Assembly (NCBI RefSeq): GCF_016616235.1
Contig: NZ_CP067100.1
Coordinates: forward strand, 4,709,001 to 4,773,000
Source: Bradyrhizobium diazoefficiens
GTDB lineage: Bacteria > Pseudomonadota > Alphaproteobacteria > Rhizobiales > Xanthobacteraceae
DNA length: 64,000 nt
Reading direction: 5' to 3'
In this document: piece by piece, positions 30,543-44,762 of the stretch
Numbering within the stretch: position 1 is the stretch's first letter
How the letters are laid out: each line of letters begins with the position of its first letter
The notes under the pieces: model-generated
The model's database searches: none
What the model saw: the letters and a program-made list of their open reading frames with translations, nothing else
What the model was told of the DNA's origin: nothing
Translations under genes and position numbers: made by a program

Positions 30543-31245
30543 TTGAGCACAAGACTTTCATTGCTGTGCGTTCACGGCGTCGGCCATTCCGAGATCGACG
30601 CCGAGTTTCGAAAATCATGGCCCGAGGCGATCATACGCGCGGTGCAATCCGTCGATCAGAGCCGAAAGCATGTGGGTGCCGCGGAAGTTCGATCCCCTGA
30701 ACAAGAGTCTGAAGAAGAGCAAGGATGGCGCCGACTATCTCGGCACCAACGGCGCCACGCGGCGGCTCGGACGCAGCATGGCGCTCCGCACCCAGCCCGA
30801 CAGGGAATACGACAAAAAGCGGATCGAGCTCGGGCATGAGGGCCCATATCTGCCGATCCTGCTCGAGGTTTGCCAGGAGCAGGAGCTGTCTTATGAGTAT
30901 CGTGACGGCGTCACATCGTACGGCGTCTACACGTTCTGCGTGGCGAAGGTCCTGCGCGAGCAGCGAATTCTCGGCATCAATCCGTCGTTCAAGGGCCTCA
31001 GCCAGCTCGTCACGGCCAAGCTTCGTCGTCTCAAGTACAACCAGACACCCAACCTCGTCGGCTTCAGCAAACGCATCGCGGCGAAAATTCCATGGAGTGC
31101 GGCAGATGCCGATGGCAACCAGCAACCCGCGCCGACGAAGCGCGTCGCCAAAACCGGCAGATCCAAGACCGCAAAATCCAAGACCGCAAAATCAAAGACG
31201 GCCAAGTCTAGGGCTGCCAAGTCGCCCCGAAAGAGGCGTCGCTAA
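30543..31245 (+). pseudogene. Decayed alpha/beta-hydrolase-caspase-like gene (internal deletion and frameshift)
   Basis: Two fragments in different frames suggest one broken gene. After GGAGG, a TTG start at 30543 opens LSLLCVHGVGHSEIDAEF, which looks like the N-terminus of a lipase-like hydrolase. It loses sense near 30660. From about 30670 the +1 frame reads a C-terminal caspase-like (peptidase C14) segment: LLEVCQEQELSYEY, SYGVYTFCVAKVL and YNQTPNLVG. The His-Cys catalytic part expected upstream is missing, so most of the middle is deleted. The end is a Lys-rich repeat tail (three near-copies of KTAKS). It could alternatively be a short new ORF starting at ATG 30670. Confidence 0.6.
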
Positions 31246-32766: not shown

Positions 32767-33336
32767 GACGCGTCTCTCCTTTGCCAAGTTGCGCGATCCT
32801 TCGTTCCAGACGCAACATAAGCGGGCGAGGCGAAGCTGAACGTGAACGGGCCGTGAATTGGACGCATGCGCGATGTGCCCGCGGCGAGGATCGGCGTCTT
32901 GCCGCCACACGATACCAGCCAGGGAGGTTGTCCGGCACCGCCCCGATGCGCCACGGACCCCGGCAGACCGGCCGACGCGACAAGCAAGCCCCGCCCTCGC
33001 CTGCGAATTGCTGACGAGGCAACGAGCCGCTCGCACGGCGCAAGCGGCTGCGCCCCCGGCATTCACGCTCATTTCACGCTGATGGGCTCGAAGTGAGGAG
33101 CTCTTTCATTTCGCCTGCAAGGTCGCATTTCGATCAATCGGCAACCCTTGACCGTGTAACGGCCCCAGATGTACCATTCACGCATTGCACAAGAACCGGC
33201 GGGCTGTATTCCTGAGCTCACGTCTCATTGGCTTCGTGGACAAGGCGAGCCAATCAACTGCATTACACCAAGCCTAAGCGCCCGGGACCTGCCCTCCTGC
33301 ACAGCAGTCGACGATGTCGGCGGGGGATGGGTCGAG
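32767..33336. other. Divergent intergenic region upstream of the SARP-type regulator
   Basis: This gap of about 570 bp has no convincing gene; short frames on both strands are Arg/Ala/Pro-rich shadows. The regulator frame is open from a start at 33169, but the 56 extra residues have no recognisable fold. Promoters for both divergent genes must be here; a relatively AT-rich stretch near 33105-33150 is the best place for the rightward one. Confidence 0.4.
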
Positions 33337-35391
33337 ATGTCGGGAGTCGACGGCGATAAGGCGGTTAGCGAGCGCGCGACCGGCCGCCTGAGGCTGAATA
33401 TCATCGGAGCATTTTCAGCGTCGGTGGACGGACACGAGATCGGACTTGGCCGAAAGGCCCAAGCGCTTCTCGGCTATATGATGCTCTGCTCCGCACGTCA
33501 GTTGCCCCGGACCAAATTGGTCGGCCTGCTCTGGAGCGAGAAGGAAGACCCGCTCGCGAAAGGTTCGCTGCGCCAAACGCTCAGTCAAATTCAGCGCGAG
33601 CTGAAGGCGCTCGGCTGCACGCACTTCCATGCAGACCAGATGCACGTGGCCCTCGATGTCGAACAGGTCGCGTGTGACGTGATGGAGATCGTCGCGGATG
33701 CCGAGCGCGGCGTCGTGCATCCGACCCTGCTCGCGCAAGAACGCCTGACCGACGGCATTCTCGAAGACCTGGAAGGCGTCGACCCCGCATTTTCGGATTG
33801 GCTTGCAGAGACGCGACCGCTGATCCACGAACGGCTGATCGATGCGCTGACGAGACTGCTGCCCGATGAGAGCCAGACGGGCGTCACGGCCACCGCGGAG
33901 GCTGCGGCAAAGGCCATCTACCGACTGGATTCCGAGAACGAGCGGGCCGTTCGCGTTCTCATCAAGAGCCACACCACCGCCGGAAGCATCGGTGCAGCGC
34001 TCGCGATCTATGCACGGCTTTGGCGCCAACTCGAGGACGCCTACGATATCGAGCCGCACAAGCTGACACAGGACCTGATAGCCGGCCTGCGCCAGCAACA
34101 GCCTGAGACGATCGTACGGCCAGTTCCATCCCCCGCAGCAGCACCCGCGCTCGCTCTGGCCGGATTTGCCGTCAGCCGGCCATCGGTTGCCGTTCTCCCC
34201 TTTCGCGCGTTGTCGCCGGCGCTGGAGCCTCAATTCACGATCGGCATCGTCGACAGCGTCGTCCAGGCCCTGTCGAGCCTGAAAGAGCTGCTCGTCATTT
34301 CCCGCGGATCGACCATGATTCCAGTGTCGCAGACGCTGGATCTGCGTGCGATCGGCCGCGATCTCAACGCGCAGTATCTGCTTCATGGAAGCATTCAGCG
34401 CGCCGGCGATCAGATCCGGATCTCGACCGAACTCGTGGCCGCCGAAACGGTCGAGGTCGTCCGTGTCGATCGTCTCAGCGGAACGGCCGCCGACGTCTTC
34501 GACCTGCAGGATCGCATCGCCGTCGAGGTCATACGCTCGCTGGCGCCCCAAGTCCGCGACCGGGAGCTTCATCGCGCAATGCAGAAGAGACCTGACGATC
34601 TCGACGCCTATCAGCTGGCGCTGGTCGGCTACGACCAGATGTTCAGCCCTGACTACACGACATTCGTGACGGCCCGGACCAATTTCGAGCGGGCGCATGT
34701 CCTCAGCTCCGGTTGGGCGCCGCCCCTGTCTTACAGCGCCATCTGGCACATGCAGCGTGTGGCGCGCGGATGGTCCGCTCACGCTCCGAGCGAACTCGAC
34801 ACCGCGCGGATGCTCGCCGAACGTGCCCTGGAGCGAAACTCGGCCGATCCGCTCGCCAACGCCGTCGGCGGCTATACGCTCTCGCAGTGCAAGCACGATC
34901 ATGCCGGCGCCCTCAAACAGCTCGATCGTGCGATCGAGCTGACGCCGAACCTGGCGCTCGCATTCGCATACCGCGCCGCCGTGAATGTCCGCTGTGAGCG
35001 GTATGAGGATGCGCTCGCCGATGCGGCGATCAATCTGCGGCTGTCGCCGCGCGACAGGCACGCCTGGTTCGCCGAGATGATCTCGGCTCAAGCCCATTTT
35101 GCCATGAATGATCTCGACGCGGCCGTCGATCACGCGATGCGGGTCGCGCGGCGGCTGCCAAGCGACCAGGCGAACCTGCGCGTTCTCATCGCAGCCCTCG
35201 TCGAAAGCGAGCGCCTCGACGATGCGCAGGCCTTTGCGCGGCCGATGATGACGGCCGGCGAACTCGACCTGACGTGGATTGCGACGTCGCCATGGCCGAA
35301 GCCCACCCTGGCGCGCATCGAGGCCGCGCTCGCGCGGCTGGCATCGACGCTGCGGCGCGGCAAGCCCCACGGCGGCACCGGGAAATCTTGA
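33337..35391 (+). CDS. SARP/BTAD-type transcriptional activator with TolB-like and TPR domains
   Basis: Large regulator of 684 aa from the ATG at 33337 (an upstream ATG at 33169 would add 56 residues). Domains in order: an OmpR-like winged helix at about 18-110 (LRLNIIGAFSASVDGHEIGL, LSQIQRELKAL); a bacterial transcriptional activation domain at about 120-250 with helical repeats; a TolB-like/FlgO-like domain at about 285-420 (PSVAVLPFRALSP, LLHGSIQRAGDQIRI), as found in class III adenylate cyclase partners; then TPR-like helical repeats to the end. No cyclase or ATPase domain is present. The adjacent rightward genes at 35406 and 36337 are its probable targets; the 14-bp gap to the first suggests one operon. 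Confidence 0.88.
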   Translation: MSGVDGDKAVSERATGRLRLNIIGAFSASVDGHEIGLGRKAQALLGYMMLCSARQLPRTKLVGLLWSEKEDPLAKGSLRQTLSQIQRELKALGCTHFHADQMHVALDVEQVACDVMEIVADAERGVVHPTLLAQERLTDGILEDLEGVDPAFSDWLAETRPLIHERLIDALTRLLPDESQTGVTATAEAAAKAIYRLDSENERAVRVLIKSHTTAGSIGAALAIYARLWRQLEDAYDIEPHKLTQDLIAGLRQQQPETIVRPVPSPAAAPALALAGFAVSRPSVAVLPFRALSPALEPQFTIGIVDSVVQALSSLKELLVISRGSTMIPVSQTLDLRAIGRDLNAQYLLHGSIQRAGDQIRISTELVAAETVEVVRVDRLSGTAADVFDLQDRIAVEVIRSLAPQVRDRELHRAMQKRPDDLDAYQLALVGYDQMFSPDYTTFVTARTNFERAHVLSSGWAPPLSYSAIWHMQRVARGWSAHAPSELDTARMLAERALERNSADPLANAVGGYTLSQCKHDHAGALKQLDRAIELTPNLALAFAYRAAVNVRCERYEDALADAAINLRLSPRDRHAWFAEMISAQAHFAMNDLDAAVDHAMRVARRLPSDQANLRVLIAALVESERLDDAQAFARPMMTAGELDLTWIATSPWPKPTLARIEAALARLASTLRRGKPHGGTGKS

Positions 35392-35405
35392 CAGAGGAGG
35401 CGTAA

Positions 35406-36350
35406 ATGGCAGGCGGATATGGCGGTTACGGCGGTTATGGTGGCTACGGTGGCTATGGCGGTTACGGTGGTTATGGCGGCTATGGGGGATACGGCGGTGC
35501 CGGCGGGGGTGGCGGCGCCATGTTCGCCGATCGCAGCGATCAGCGGTTCGCAATGATGCCTGAAATCGACGGCGCCCTGCTCAATGCGACCAGCTTTGGC
35601 TCGCTCTGGTCGACCCGATGGTACTCCTGGGTCGTGATGTCCGACCTTGCCCGCCGAGCAGACTGGCTCGACCGGCTGGGCGGATTTTCATTGCTCGGCG
35701 CCGGAATGACGCCATGGGCCGAAGGTCTTCAGGCGGACCTCGCCACGTTGAGGAACATGGCCTTCCTCGAGCGCCCTGTAGCAATCGACGAGATCGTGAC
35801 CGAGGCTGACGAGTTCATCAGCAAGTTCCTGCACCTCGTGTCCGCGACGGCGACAACGCACCCGGCGACATCGCGCATGCTGATCGTTGCGGATGCGCTG
35901 ACGGCGCTGATCACGATGCACTACAAGGCTCATTTCAATCGTCCCCGCCCCACGCAAGTGGCGCCCGCCCTGATGTCACCGATCGAGCATGCCGGACACG
36001 CATCGTTTCCGAGCGGCCACGCCACCCAGGCGCATGTCTTCGCGGCACTCCTTACGGAAATCATGCCGAAGCGGCTCGGCGTTGCGGCACCGACCCCGGC
36101 AGATCCAGAGAGAACCACGATCGGCAAATCGCTCGTCTTCCTTGCAGATCGGATCGCACGCAATCGCGAAATCGCCGGTCTTCACTATCCGTCGGACACC
36201 AGGGCAGGCGTAACACTGGCGGAAGCAATCACCAGCAAGATTCTCCTGGATTGCGACTACCTGCCGAAATTTGCAAAGCTCGTCGACAACGGCAAGCGCG
36301 AGTGGGAGAACTCTGGCGTCATCGCGGGAGAGAAAAATGCCCAAGAGTGA
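35406..36350 (+). CDS. PAP2/vanadium-haloperoxidase-fold protein with (Gly-Gly-Tyr)9 N-terminus
   Basis: Protein of 314 aa. Residues about 3-29 are nine tandem Gly-Gly-Tyr units, then a Gly-rich hinge. The C-terminal half has the complete phosphate/vanadate pocket of the PAP2/vanadium-dependent haloperoxidase superfamily: K-x6-RP (KAHFNRPRP), PSGH (SFPSGHATQAH) and R-x5-H-x3-D (REIAGLHYPSD). The domain could be an acid phosphatase or a haloperoxidase. Hydrophobicity is too low for a lipid phosphatase with six helices, which favours the soluble branch. There is no signal peptide. GAGGAGG lies ahead of the ATG. It overlaps the next gene by 14 bp. Confidence 0.85.
   Translation: MAGGYGGYGGYGGYGGYGGYGGYGGYGGYGGAGGGGGAMFADRSDQRFAMMPEIDGALLNATSFGSLWSTRWYSWVVMSDLARRADWLDRLGGFSLLGAGMTPWAEGLQADLATLRNMAFLERPVAIDEIVTEADEFISKFLHLVSATATTHPATSRMLIVADALTALITMHYKAHFNRPRPTQVAPALMSPIEHAGHASFPSGHATQAHVFAALLTEIMPKRLGVAAPTPADPERTTIGKSLVFLADRIARNREIAGLHYPSDTRAGVTLAEAITSKILLDCDYLPKFAKLVDNGKREWENSGVIAGEKNAQE
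35412..35492 (+). repeat. Nine in-frame GGN-GGN-TAY units coding (Gly-Gly-Tyr)9
   Basis: Nine consecutive 9-bp units encode Gly-Gly-Tyr at the start of the PAP2-type gene. The units differ at wobble positions (GGA-TAT, GGT-TAC, GGC-TAC, GGA-TAC and others), so the run has not just expanded by slippage; the peptide itself appears to be kept. Confidence 0.95.
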
Positions 36351-37320
36351 CAGCTACGGCTTCTACGAGGAGGTTCCGGACGGGTTCAATCTCCTCGACG
36401 CGACGCCGGACCAGTTGGATCTCTACGGCATTCCGCAGAAGCCCGATGCCAAGACCGAGCCGCGCCTCTACGAATTCTGGCGACGGCTGGTTTCCTCGCC
36501 GTTCAGGGCAAGGCAACCGACCTTCAGCAGCATCGATCCTTCTGCCCAGGGAGGCCCATTCGAATCGCTGTTGAACTGGTCGGGCGCGCTCATCCATTCG
36601 CTTCCACCCGAGCGGATCGTCTTCGCAGCGGGCGGATGGAATGTGCCAAAAGTGGCTCAGCCGTCCATCCCCGCCCTTTTCACCCCCTCGAACGATCCAA
36701 GGGCGTTGCTATGGGTGGGCCTTGACGGCCACGACGGCGGATTGCCGAACATTTCCCTCCCTCAGATCGGCACCGCCCACTGGCTCAATCACAAACCCGA
36801 GCACTTCGCGTGGTGGGAATGGTGGCGCAACACTTCAGCGAATGCGGTGCCTGAGCCGCCACAGGCAATCACGGTGATCGACAATCTGCCGATCAATGTC
36901 AGCGACGAGATCTTCGCTGGTCTCGCGGTTCAGGTCAGCGGAGACGTCCTCTTCTTCATCAAGAACCAGAGCATCGGCGAATTCCGCTCATTTCTCGCCC
37001 GGCCGCCGGGCGTGATCCGGCCGCTCGGATCGTCGGTGGAATGGATCGTGGAGCGGCCGACAGATCCGCCCAGCCGGCAATTATCCGCGCTTCCGGCTTA
37101 TGGCTCCGTGGATTTCAGATACTGCATGGCCCGGGCGGCATCCGAAGGGCCGCTCGCGCCCGGACGTTTGCTGACGCTGGATGACAGCGCGCTGATGATC
37201 CATATGCGCGAGATTTTTGCGGACCCCAATCGTACCATCGCCGTCTCGAGCCCGGAGCTCAGGCATGACAAGGACGGCTCCGTTGGCGTCACATGCAGCT
37301 ACAAGGAGCCGACAGGGTAA
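36337..37320 (+). CDS. Glutamic peptidase G1 (eqolisin)-like protein
   Basis: Protein of 327 aa. The C-terminal two thirds reads like the eqolisin (peptidase G1) beta-sandwich: LLWVGLDG at 124-131, a conserved Gln in LPQIGTAHWL (Q143), the aromatic WWEWW at 159-163, SGDVLFFIKN at 201-210 and the hallmark EWIVERP at 235-241, whose first Glu (E235) aligns by pattern with the catalytic Glu of fungal glutamic peptidases. The order and spacing fit. Residues 1-90 are an extra N-terminal part. Fungal members are secreted as proenzymes; no signal peptide is visible here. The gene overlaps the PAP2-type gene by 14 bp, so both are probably co-translated. Confidence 0.75.
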   Translation: MPKSDSYGFYEEVPDGFNLLDATPDQLDLYGIPQKPDAKTEPRLYEFWRRLVSSPFRARQPTFSSIDPSAQGGPFESLLNWSGALIHSLPPERIVFAAGGWNVPKVAQPSIPALFTPSNDPRALLWVGLDGHDGGLPNISLPQIGTAHWLNHKPEHFAWWEWWRNTSANAVPEPPQAITVIDNLPINVSDEIFAGLAVQVSGDVLFFIKNQSIGEFRSFLARPPGVIRPLGSSVEWIVERPTDPPSRQLSALPAYGSVDFRYCMARAASEGPLAPGRLLTLDDSALMIHMREIFADPNRTIAVSSPELRHDKDGSVGVTCSYKEPTG

Positions 37321-37341: not shown

Positions 37342-37410
37342 CTACTCCGGCTTGATGTTCGCAGCCTCGACCACCTTCTTTCACCGCTTGATCTCGGAGG
37401 CGATGTAGGC
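37342..37410 (-). pseudogene. C-terminal remnant of a TctC/Bug-family binding protein
   Basis: The minus strand reads AYIASEIKR, a TGA stop at 37381-37383, then KKVVEAANIKPE and a TAG stop. This is the usual C-terminus of tripartite tricarboxylate transporter binding proteins (pattern EI-x-W-x-K-V-V-x-A-A-x-I-K), with the conserved Trp codon turned into a stop. Upstream sequence has lost similarity. It is a leftover of a deleted gene at the border of the SARP/PAP2/G1 cluster. Confidence 0.55.
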
Positions 37411-37513
37411 CGGCCGGGCACGCGCATTCCCGCCTACAGGGCCGCGCTCGGTCACGTCGTGCTGGTGCGGCGAGCGGATCGCGCCAAGTCGGGGCTGACG
37501 AGCTGAGCAGGCG

Positions 37514-42710: not shown

Positions 42711-44762
42711 ATGCCCGCCCTTGCATTTGCCAATAACGACATCGCGGTCGTCGCCTGGACCTTCGACAAGCGCTTGCCGAACTGTCTCGGTTTTGCCGTC
42801 TATCAGCGCGACCTGGCCACGAATGTGGAAATCGCGCTACCAGCGCTCGCGCGCTTTGCATCCCAGGACGTTGATGCCCACCTGACCACAGAGCAAGCGC
42901 CGATCCAGAAATTTTGGTGGAAGGACCTCTATGCACATCGGGGCCACACCTACCGCTATCGCATCGTTGCCATGGGCGGCACGCCAGGGCAGCTCAAGCC
43001 GCTCGACGGCGTCGAAGAGCTCACCAGCAACGACGTGACGCTCGTTCCGGATAGGCCGCCGTTCAAGGCCTACTTCAATCGTGGGATCGTTGCTTCCCAG
43101 TCGGTCATTCATGCGCTGGGCGACAAGGCCGACATCAACGTCCTCAAGGAGCACATTACCAACCCTGCGGATACCTTGCGTGCACGCCTGATGGGTCAAA
43201 TCTTCGAGGGCGTCACGTTGCTGCTCGACCGCGCCGACAAGTCGAACGGCAAGATCAATGCCGCGCTGTATGAGCTCGATGATCCCAAAGGTCTTGAGGT
43301 CCGTCTGCAGGCCGCCGACAAGGGCAACCCGACAAGCCGCACCGTGATCCTGGGCAACGAATGGATTCACGACGACACGACCGGCCAAGATATCGAAGAT
43401 GCCGATGCCGACAACCGTGCGGCCCTGAAGAAGGCCGGCGTTCCGGTCATCGACCGCATCGTCCAGAAAGGCCGCATTCCTCACAACAAGTTCTTGGTGC
43501 TCACCGAGGCAACCAAGCCCACCGCTGTCCTGACCGGATCGACCAACTGGACCAGCAGCGGCCTCTGTACGCAGACGAACAACGCCCTGGTCATCGAATC
43601 GCAGCTCGTCGCGGAACGCTATATCGAGTACTGGAACGAGCTGAAGAAAGACATCGATCAGGCCTCAGGCAACCAGAAGGCGCTCCAGGGCGAGGTCCTG
43701 CGAACATGGGCTCGCAACAACAACGCCAAGCAGCCAATCAGGCTGGAGGACGGCAAGACCACGATCGAGTTGATGTTCTCGCCCAACACCAAGAAACCAC
43801 TGGCGAGCCCTCCCAAGGAGGTGCCGAACGACGTCAGGCGGATGTTCGACCTGGTCAACGGCGCCAAACAAGCGGTGCTGTTTCTTGCCTTTGATCCCGG
43901 CAACAACTCTATCCTCGACGCGGCGGGCCAGGCGCTCGCGAAAAATCCAGATCTCTTTGTGCGCGGCGCATTGACCAGCACGCAACGCGCAGGAAATTTC
44001 CGTGACGCGCTGAATCGCGGCAAGGAGTCGGAACACGGCGACGGTGAGGACATGCATGTCGCGGTCATCGGCGAGGCCGGCAAGCCGAAGAAGAAAGGCG
44101 CCAAGGGAGCTGCAAAAGCGGCGAAAACCAAACCAAGCAGTGCCCCCGACTATCGCGCGATTCCGGCGGGTTCGCTGACAAAGAACGACGCCTTCGGGGC
44201 CTGGGAAGGAGAACTCTACAAATATGGCCACGCGATCATCCACAACAAGATCGTGGTCATCGATCCCTTCAGCGACAATTGCACGGTGATCACCGGCTCA
44301 CATAATCTCGGCTACCGAGCGTCGAGCAACAACGACGAGAACATGGTCATTATCCGCGGGCATCGCGGTTTGGCGCAGGCATATGCCTGCCATGTCCTCG
44401 ACGTCTACGATCATTACGCGTGGCGCTACTGGTTGCACAAATATCCAGATCGGTTCGGCAAGCCGCTTCGCGACGACGACCAATGGCAGGACAATTACAT
44501 CGACGGCGCGGCTGAGAAGTCGCCGGAGCTCCGGTTCTGGCTTTCGTCGGCCAACAACGGAGTGGCGCAGCCTGCGCCGGCGGGCAACAGACCAGCGGCA
44601 AAGAAGAACGCAGCCAAAAAGGCCGTAAAAAAGAAGACAACGAAGAAAAAGAAGGCTGCCAAGAAGACCGCAAAGAAGAAGACCGCAAAGAAGAAAGCAG
44701 CCGCGAAGAAGACGACCAAAAAGAAAGCTGCCAGGAAAACGAAATCAGCCAAGAAAAAATGA
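42711..44762 (+). CDS. Phospholipase D-like protein with Lys/Ala-rich C-terminal tail
   Basis: Protein of 683 aa. The N-terminal about 110 residues look like a beta-sandwich (fibronectin-like). Two phospholipase D half-motifs follow: IPHNKFLVLT at 256-265, with the Asp of HxK-x4-D replaced by Thr, then GSTNWTSSG; and IIHNKIVVIDP at 509-519, complete (H511, K513, D518), then GSHNLG. One intact and one altered HKD suggest a modified active site. A run of about 60 residues at the C-terminus is nearly pure Lys/Ala/Thr, as in histone H1-like tails, and may bind DNA or another polyanion. A shorter Lys-rich insert lies at about 463-480. No signal peptide. The GGAGG site precedes the ATG. Confidence 0.83.
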   Translation: MPALAFANNDIAVVAWTFDKRLPNCLGFAVYQRDLATNVEIALPALARFASQDVDAHLTTEQAPIQKFWWKDLYAHRGHTYRYRIVAMGGTPGQLKPLDGVEELTSNDVTLVPDRPPFKAYFNRGIVASQSVIHALGDKADINVLKEHITNPADTLRARLMGQIFEGVTLLLDRADKSNGKINAALYELDDPKGLEVRLQAADKGNPTSRTVILGNEWIHDDTTGQDIEDADADNRAALKKAGVPVIDRIVQKGRIPHNKFLVLTEATKPTAVLTGSTNWTSSGLCTQTNNALVIESQLVAERYIEYWNELKKDIDQASGNQKALQGEVLRTWARNNNAKQPIRLEDGKTTIELMFSPNTKKPLASPPKEVPNDVRRMFDLVNGAKQAVLFLAFDPGNNSILDAAGQALAKNPDLFVRGALTSTQRAGNFRDALNRGKESEHGDGEDMHVAVIGEAGKPKKKGAKGAAKAAKTKPSSAPDYRAIPAGSLTKNDAFGAWEGELYKYGHAIIHNKIVVIDPFSDNCTVITGSHNLGYRASSNNDENMVIIRGHRGLAQAYACHVLDVYDHYAWRYWLHKYPDRFGKPLRDDDQWQDNYIDGAAEKSPELRFWLSSANNGVAQPAPAGNRPAAKKNAAKKAVKKKTTKKKKAAKKTAKKKTAKKKAAAKKTTKKKAARKTKSAKKK

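Follow-up and report, generated by a model that had tools for sequence, protein, structure and literature searches.

A recurrent sensor, repeat-tailed PAP2 enzyme and peptidase gene cluster in Bradyrhizobium diazoefficiens and related bacteria

The stretch of Bradyrhizobium diazoefficiens DNA analyzed here (the window, 64,000 nucleotides, to which all positions refer) contains three adjacent rightward open reading frames whose main features are listed in Table 1. Recomputed coordinates reproduced the arrangement in the preliminary description, with a gap of 14 bp between genes 1 and 2 and an overlap of 14 bp between genes 2 and 3. A ribosome-binding-like stretch, GAGGAGG, lies 5' of gene 2. 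Hydropathy analysis of the three products revealed no segment of signal-peptide or membrane strength (largest 19-residue values 1.52, 1.22, and 1.35). The gene 2 product is probably soluble and cytosolic.

Table 1. Features of the three-gene locus in the window.
Feature	Positions	Strand	Basis
Gene 1: sensor/regulator, SARP-type N-terminal part (weak wHTH, BTAD) + TolB-like + TPR, 684 aa	33337..35391	+	Pfam, relatives
Gene 2: soluble PAP2 acid-phosphatase-fold enzyme, 314 aa	35406..36350	+	Pfam PAP2, fold
Gene 2, disordered N-terminal tail with (GGY)9	35406..35513	+	Repeat count, pLDDT, codon variation
Gene 3: G1 glutamic peptidase without signal peptide, 327 aa, dyad Q143/E239	36337..37320	+	Pfam, PDB profiles
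Promoter-like site: −35 TTGACC, 18 nt, −10 TACCAT	33148..33177	+	Consensus scan
Candidate regulator site: direct repeat TTCACGC-N4-TTCACG, 11-bp period	33062..33078	+	Conserved in alignment

Gene 1 could begin at 33169, which gives the longest frame, or at 33337, the start chosen earlier. When seven orthologous sequences were aligned, the variable columns within the 168 bases from 33169 to 33336 were spread about equally over the three codon positions (15, 13, and 21 of 56); whereas from 33337 to 33900 variation fell mostly at the third position (43, 26, and 100 of 188). A sigma-70-like consensus scan found one promoter-like site, where 0.7 would be expected by chance, overlapping the 33169 ATG, and both of its hexamers were present in all seven aligned sequences. 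As the codon pattern appeared only after 33337 and the promoter-like site lies over the 33169 ATG, the start at 33337 is better supported; gene 1 would then have a leader of about 150 bases. A single repeat pair, conserved across the seven orthologous upstream regions, lies some 70 bp 5' of the promoter-like site, and its exact sequence occurs at two places in the 7.67-Mb single-contig genome. SARP proteins are described, in the available text of PMC5930380, as binding heptamers with 4-nt spacers, and because the repeat pair follows this pattern, we regard it as a candidate operator and possible SARP target.

The remnant reported beside gene 3 (37342-37410) was confirmed, since the minus strand from 37344 to 37415 reads as the end of a gene with an in-frame stop, RPAYIASEIKR*KKVVEAANIKPE*, which may resemble a tripartite-transporter binding protein. 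Within the other reported remnant (30543-31245) we observed a 191-aa frame on the plus strand (30670-31245) that ends in AKSKTAKSKTAKS repeats; it gave no Pfam match and is present as a single copy in the window genome. Farther to the right, the plus strand from 42711 to 44762 encodes a protein with a PLD domain (PLDc_2, 68 bits), the long C-terminal tail of which is rich in Lys and Ala (AKKKTAKKK).

The gene 1 product matched the BTAD family expected of a SARP regulator at 37 bits (Pfam cut-off 22.1). For Trans_reg_C, the OmpR-like winged helix, the N-terminus scored 13 bits and fell short of the 26.2-bit cut-off. The middle part is TolB-like by a weak FlgO match, with FlgO and TolB_N matches in related sensors, and the TPR matches were weak and sub-threshold. 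Residues 316-694 of the longer frame were 37-39% identical to the C-terminal part of the cyclase-type sensors found at most related loci. Gene 2, already suspected to encode a phosphatase-fold enzyme, matched PAP2 at 45.6 bits and had the fold of acid-phosphatase-type PAP2 proteins; residues K174, R181, S203-H205, R254, and H260, which we take to be the Lys/Arg, Ser-Gly-His, and Arg/His active-site motifs of PAP2, were invariant in 65 PAP2 sequences. Recoding was considered, as several PAP2 matches contained one TGA, and was rejected: the translations had no internal stop, and in the frames that were read, the match extended beyond the terminal stop. In the PAP2 proteins of three loci (L128, L130, and L141), tail and PAP2 core are separated by about 300 additional residues that appear to be repeated modules.

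Gene 3 proved to be glutamic-peptidase-like, as first described. It contains a Peptidase_A4 (G1) domain (73.8 bits, cut-off 22.3), PDB profiles matched it to aspergillopepsin II (E 3e-10) and scytalidopepsin B, and the columns of Q143 and E239 mapped to Q133/E219 of AGP and Q107/E190 of SGP. Among rows with letters at these columns, the Gln was present in 186 of 187 and the Glu in all 185. The protein would be a dead peptidase if the Glu of AWWEWW (E161 in the window) were taken as catalytic, this position being variable (Q 54, D 12, E 6, and F 1 in 73 loci); we rejected this possibility because the AGP/SGP mapping puts the catalytic Glu at the conserved E239.

The association of the three genes was assessed among the best 80 of 238 loci from a scan that used PAP2 only. 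These came from Bradyrhizobium, Roseomonas and other Acetobacteraceae, Rhodopila, Methylobacterium, Bosea, Reyranella, Desertibaculum, Microvirga, one member of the Comamonadaceae, and others. As scored with sensor and peptidase profiles made from members of the system, 75 of the 76 loci that extend 1 kb or more upstream had a sensor immediately 5' of PAP2 and in the same orientation (the exception being L141), and a peptidase lay beside PAP2 in 74 of the 78 with at least 0.9 kb downstream (73 G1 peptidases downstream and one divergent S8). A stricter 700-bp rule gave 71 sensors and missed L051, L052, L112, L115, L121, and L138, in which the PAP2 frame runs far upstream. The four loci lacking a peptidase, from Bosea and Microvirga, also lacked the repeat tail. 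Class III cyclase domains number 26 in the window genome, and the sensor has five matches there, one of them gene 1 itself, so a sensor beside PAP2 would not be expected by chance. The adjacency on which the earlier claim depended was found in relatives, amid differing gene surroundings, and at the level of sequence this linkage shows the three genes to be genuine and associated.

A further 40 and 14 loci were hand-picked from match lists, some of their genomes occurring among the 80 loci as well, so that the 153 loci in all correspond to 141 distinct PAP2 cores. The gap from sensor to PAP2 start had a median of 38 bp and lay between −30 and +100 bp in 120 of 131 cases. Tail and peptidase were both present in 134 of the 143 sensor-bearing loci; four had neither, one was cut by a contig end, and four (L076, L145, L215, and L234) had a peptidase but a tail that was imperfect or went undetected, which counts against the explanation we favor below. 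After dereplication, sensor, tail, and peptidase occurred together in 82 of 95 loci. Relationships were taken from a PAP2 tree of 95 rows, which excluded near-copies (at least 80% identity), cores shorter than 150 residues, and two loci that lacked both sensor and tail. L137 and L143, which have neither tail nor peptidase, formed one supported group on it (L136 and L139 had been dropped as near-copies), and since the four loci appear to be one clade, they may reflect a single loss event. The peptidase gene was on the other strand in 11 of 144 loci, so a single transcript is not general.

When up to six candidates per genome were scored across a phylum sample, 22 of 398 genomes had a match of at least 84 bits. 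Counting the window, the best loci of these 22 had a sensor within 1.5 kb in 19 cases and a tail of at least four copies in 21, whereas the eight lower-scoring PAP2 loci scanned in the sample had neither sensor nor tail. Within the genus, G1 matches occurred in 20 of 117 sampled genomes, and PAP2 and sensor adjoined G1 in 18 of the 20, the window included; L059 and L069 keep only a C-terminal piece of G1. At L059 (genome G111), the flanking gene families are common to intact loci, which points to G1 loss by deletion; L069, with its reduced G1, is from genome G071.

The TolB-like/TPR part of the sensor was constant, and its output part was swapped among a class III cyclase and SARP or OmpR-type DNA-binding parts. 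Classification with small home-made profiles, by which SARP-like and OmpR-like parts are hard to separate (the L198 sensor, for example, gave no BTAD match), yielded 93 cyclase, 37 SARP-like, 8 OmpR-like, and 2 unclassified outputs among 140 sensors. In a branch at 33-42% PAP2 identity, the upstream gene carries the same TolB-TPR part fused to a class III cyclase instead of a SARP. The output changed at least seven times on the PAP2 tree. As cyclase and DNA-binding outputs were both found with G1 and with S8 peptidases, the modules combine. Second sensor-like genes lie near the system at L135 and L106, the former also having a further S8 gene; these are possibly tandem systems.

The peptidase was likewise exchanged. 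Four unrelated families were represented among the 153 loci: G1 glutamic, S8 subtilase, papain-like C70/C39, and a metallopeptidase of thermolysin/M36 fold. The S8 triad was retained, with Asp and His in 30 of 30 and Ser in 28 of 30 by alignment and in the other two, L197 and L204, by motif, these being misaligned yet carrying GTSGASA; one of the 30 (L135) is a further peptidase in a G1 locus. The HExxH of the metallopeptidase was invariant in 61 sequences. A profile search of the metallopeptidase alignment against PDB gave no matches, and the fold searches gave the thermolysin/M36 matches. At one papain-like locus, the peptidase gene is followed by an extra gene of 204 aa (L183:3957-4571).

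The preliminary description had noted a Tyr-rich (GGY)9 tail in gene 2, and we counted nine perfect units at the N-terminus, which begins MAGGYGGY; residues 1-36 had pLDDT below 50 in the structure model, as expected of a disordered segment. Of 139 PAP2 loci, 128 had three or more units in perfect tandem. The 11 others were the four from Bosea and Microvirga, three unrelated low-scoring PAP2 loci (L210-L212), L125, which is truncated by a contig start, and L076, L145, and L215, whose tails are imperfect. The units are of two to five residues, among them GNT, GNA, GGY, GNQ, GGA, GGF, GVT, GGNWF, GGGD, MG, GA, NK, and FD. In 79 dereplicated tails, adjacent units used different codons in 994 of 1478 comparisons of the same residue (67%), relative to 57% for random same-frame pairs; since the codons differ, the repeat is maintained as protein and cannot be a young DNA microsatellite. 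The PAP2 tree requires 45 or more changes of unit and six or more of peptidase family. No unit was common to two peptidase families among the 37 units of loci with a peptidase, and a lock between unit and family was considered; with 45 unit changes and six family changes, descent alone could suffice, and the lock was rejected.

Linkage, tail, module swaps, and conserved catalytic residues in the PAP2, G1, S8, and metallopeptidase proteins were all observed directly in the sequences. The best explanation, which we hold tentatively and give close to an even chance, is a recurrent modular system in which the peptidase trims or releases the PAP2 tail, an action suggested by the co-occurrence of the two. 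The soluble TolB-like/TPR sensor would read a signal through its TolB/TPR part and switch on its own operon, either by binding DNA directly (as a SARP here and an OmpR-type protein elsewhere) or through a cyclic nucleotide. The PAP2 enzyme would be made together with a dedicated peptidase from any of the four families, which would act on the exposed tail, and trimming or release would change the activity, solubility, or assembly of the enzyme. Counting against this explanation, too, are the possible single origin of the four loci with neither tail nor peptidase, the lack of a lock between unit and peptidase family, and the peptidase genes on the other strand. We propose, with somewhat less assurance, that this is a new type of regulated-proteolysis module, in which a cytosolic PAP2 enzyme, marked throughout by a perfect short-unit tail of freely varying sequence, would be governed by a sensor whose outputs are interchangeable; as any endopeptidase that can cut such a flexible tail would serve, glutamic, serine, cysteine, and metallo types could have taken each other's place with the arrangement unchanged.

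A different arrangement, which we consider a real though weaker possibility, has the sensor governing two parallel effectors in stress or conflict, one a phosphatase-like enzyme with a phosphorylated metabolite as its substrate, the other a peptidase whose targets are other proteins, with the tail uncut and serving self-association or solubility. That the unit sequence is so free while repetitiveness is kept suits a physical role such as assembly. The patchy presence within the genus and the two decayed copies also fit, as does the exchange of cyclase and peptidase modules that is described, in the available text of PMC7159879, among bacterial conflict systems. Against it, the three window proteins had no match at E 0.01 among the PADLOC models of 2023 for known anti-phage systems, and the absence of the peptidase from the loci without a tail is left unexplained. 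The cyclase-type sensor of L061 gave a weak PADLOC match to PycC (26.5 bits).

According to the available text of PMC3009609, characterized G1 peptidases are secreted and active at acid pH; a cytosolic G1 peptidase is therefore odd, which counts against tail cleavage by the peptidase inside the cell. Secretion would instead suit a tail that acts as an export or surface-attachment signal processed by the peptidase outside the cytosol. We consider this improbable, given that the window proteins lack signal-peptide-strength segments and that no secretion gene was recognized as a conserved neighbor when neighbors were clustered and partly annotated. That the genes are chance neighbors at a site of gene turnover, as the remnants nearby, among them the broken gene end at 37344-37415, could suggest, is scarcely credible given that the sensor adjoins PAP2 at 75 of 76 loci and the peptidase at 74 of 78, in differing surroundings.

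If the proposed tail-processing system is correct, many Alphaproteobacteria, legume symbionts among them, carry an unrecognized regulatory-proteolytic system with four interchangeable peptidase families. It would offer a role for bacterial G1 peptidases, since the in vivo function of bacterial and archaeal members is called unknown in the available text of PMC3009609, would explain repeat-tailed PAP2 proteins annotated merely as phosphatases, and would provide 38 natural short-repeat tails that are perfect in protein but not in codons.

The combination of sensor, tailed PAP2, and peptidase is apparently undescribed: no description of it was among the literature matches listed in a limited search, and the earlier suggestion of an undescribed system is supported. 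The preliminary interpretation, which also included a speculative stress- or polymer-related role, was borne out in part. Its parts nevertheless have known counterparts. The modular conflict systems of PMC7159879 (eLife 2020) similarly have peptidase, cyclase, and other modules that displace each other in operons; the available text, however, concerns vWA-MoxR, caspase, trypsin, and NucA parts, and in it the word haloperoxidase does not occur and TolB appears only in a reference. Gene 2 shares its core fold and active-site motifs with class A bacterial acid phosphatases (PhoN, PhoC, 7f17) and may share them with the vanadium haloperoxidases of the same PAP2 superfamily. Gene 3 has the same A4/G1 domain and conserved Gln/Glu dyad as MEROPS family G1 (scytalidoglutamic peptidase, aspergilloglutamic peptidase, and bacterial pepG1); in contrast to the characterized members, which are secreted, it has no signal peptide and is linked to genes for a PAP2 enzyme and a sensor. 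Gene 1 resembles AfsR and PimR, SARP proteins with C-terminal sensor parts, as far as the available accounts of them go, in joining BTAD to TPR and in having a candidate operator with 11-bp repeat spacing; unlike AfsR, it has a TolB-like part in place of the nucleotide-binding part, and that C-terminal part elsewhere carries a cyclase.
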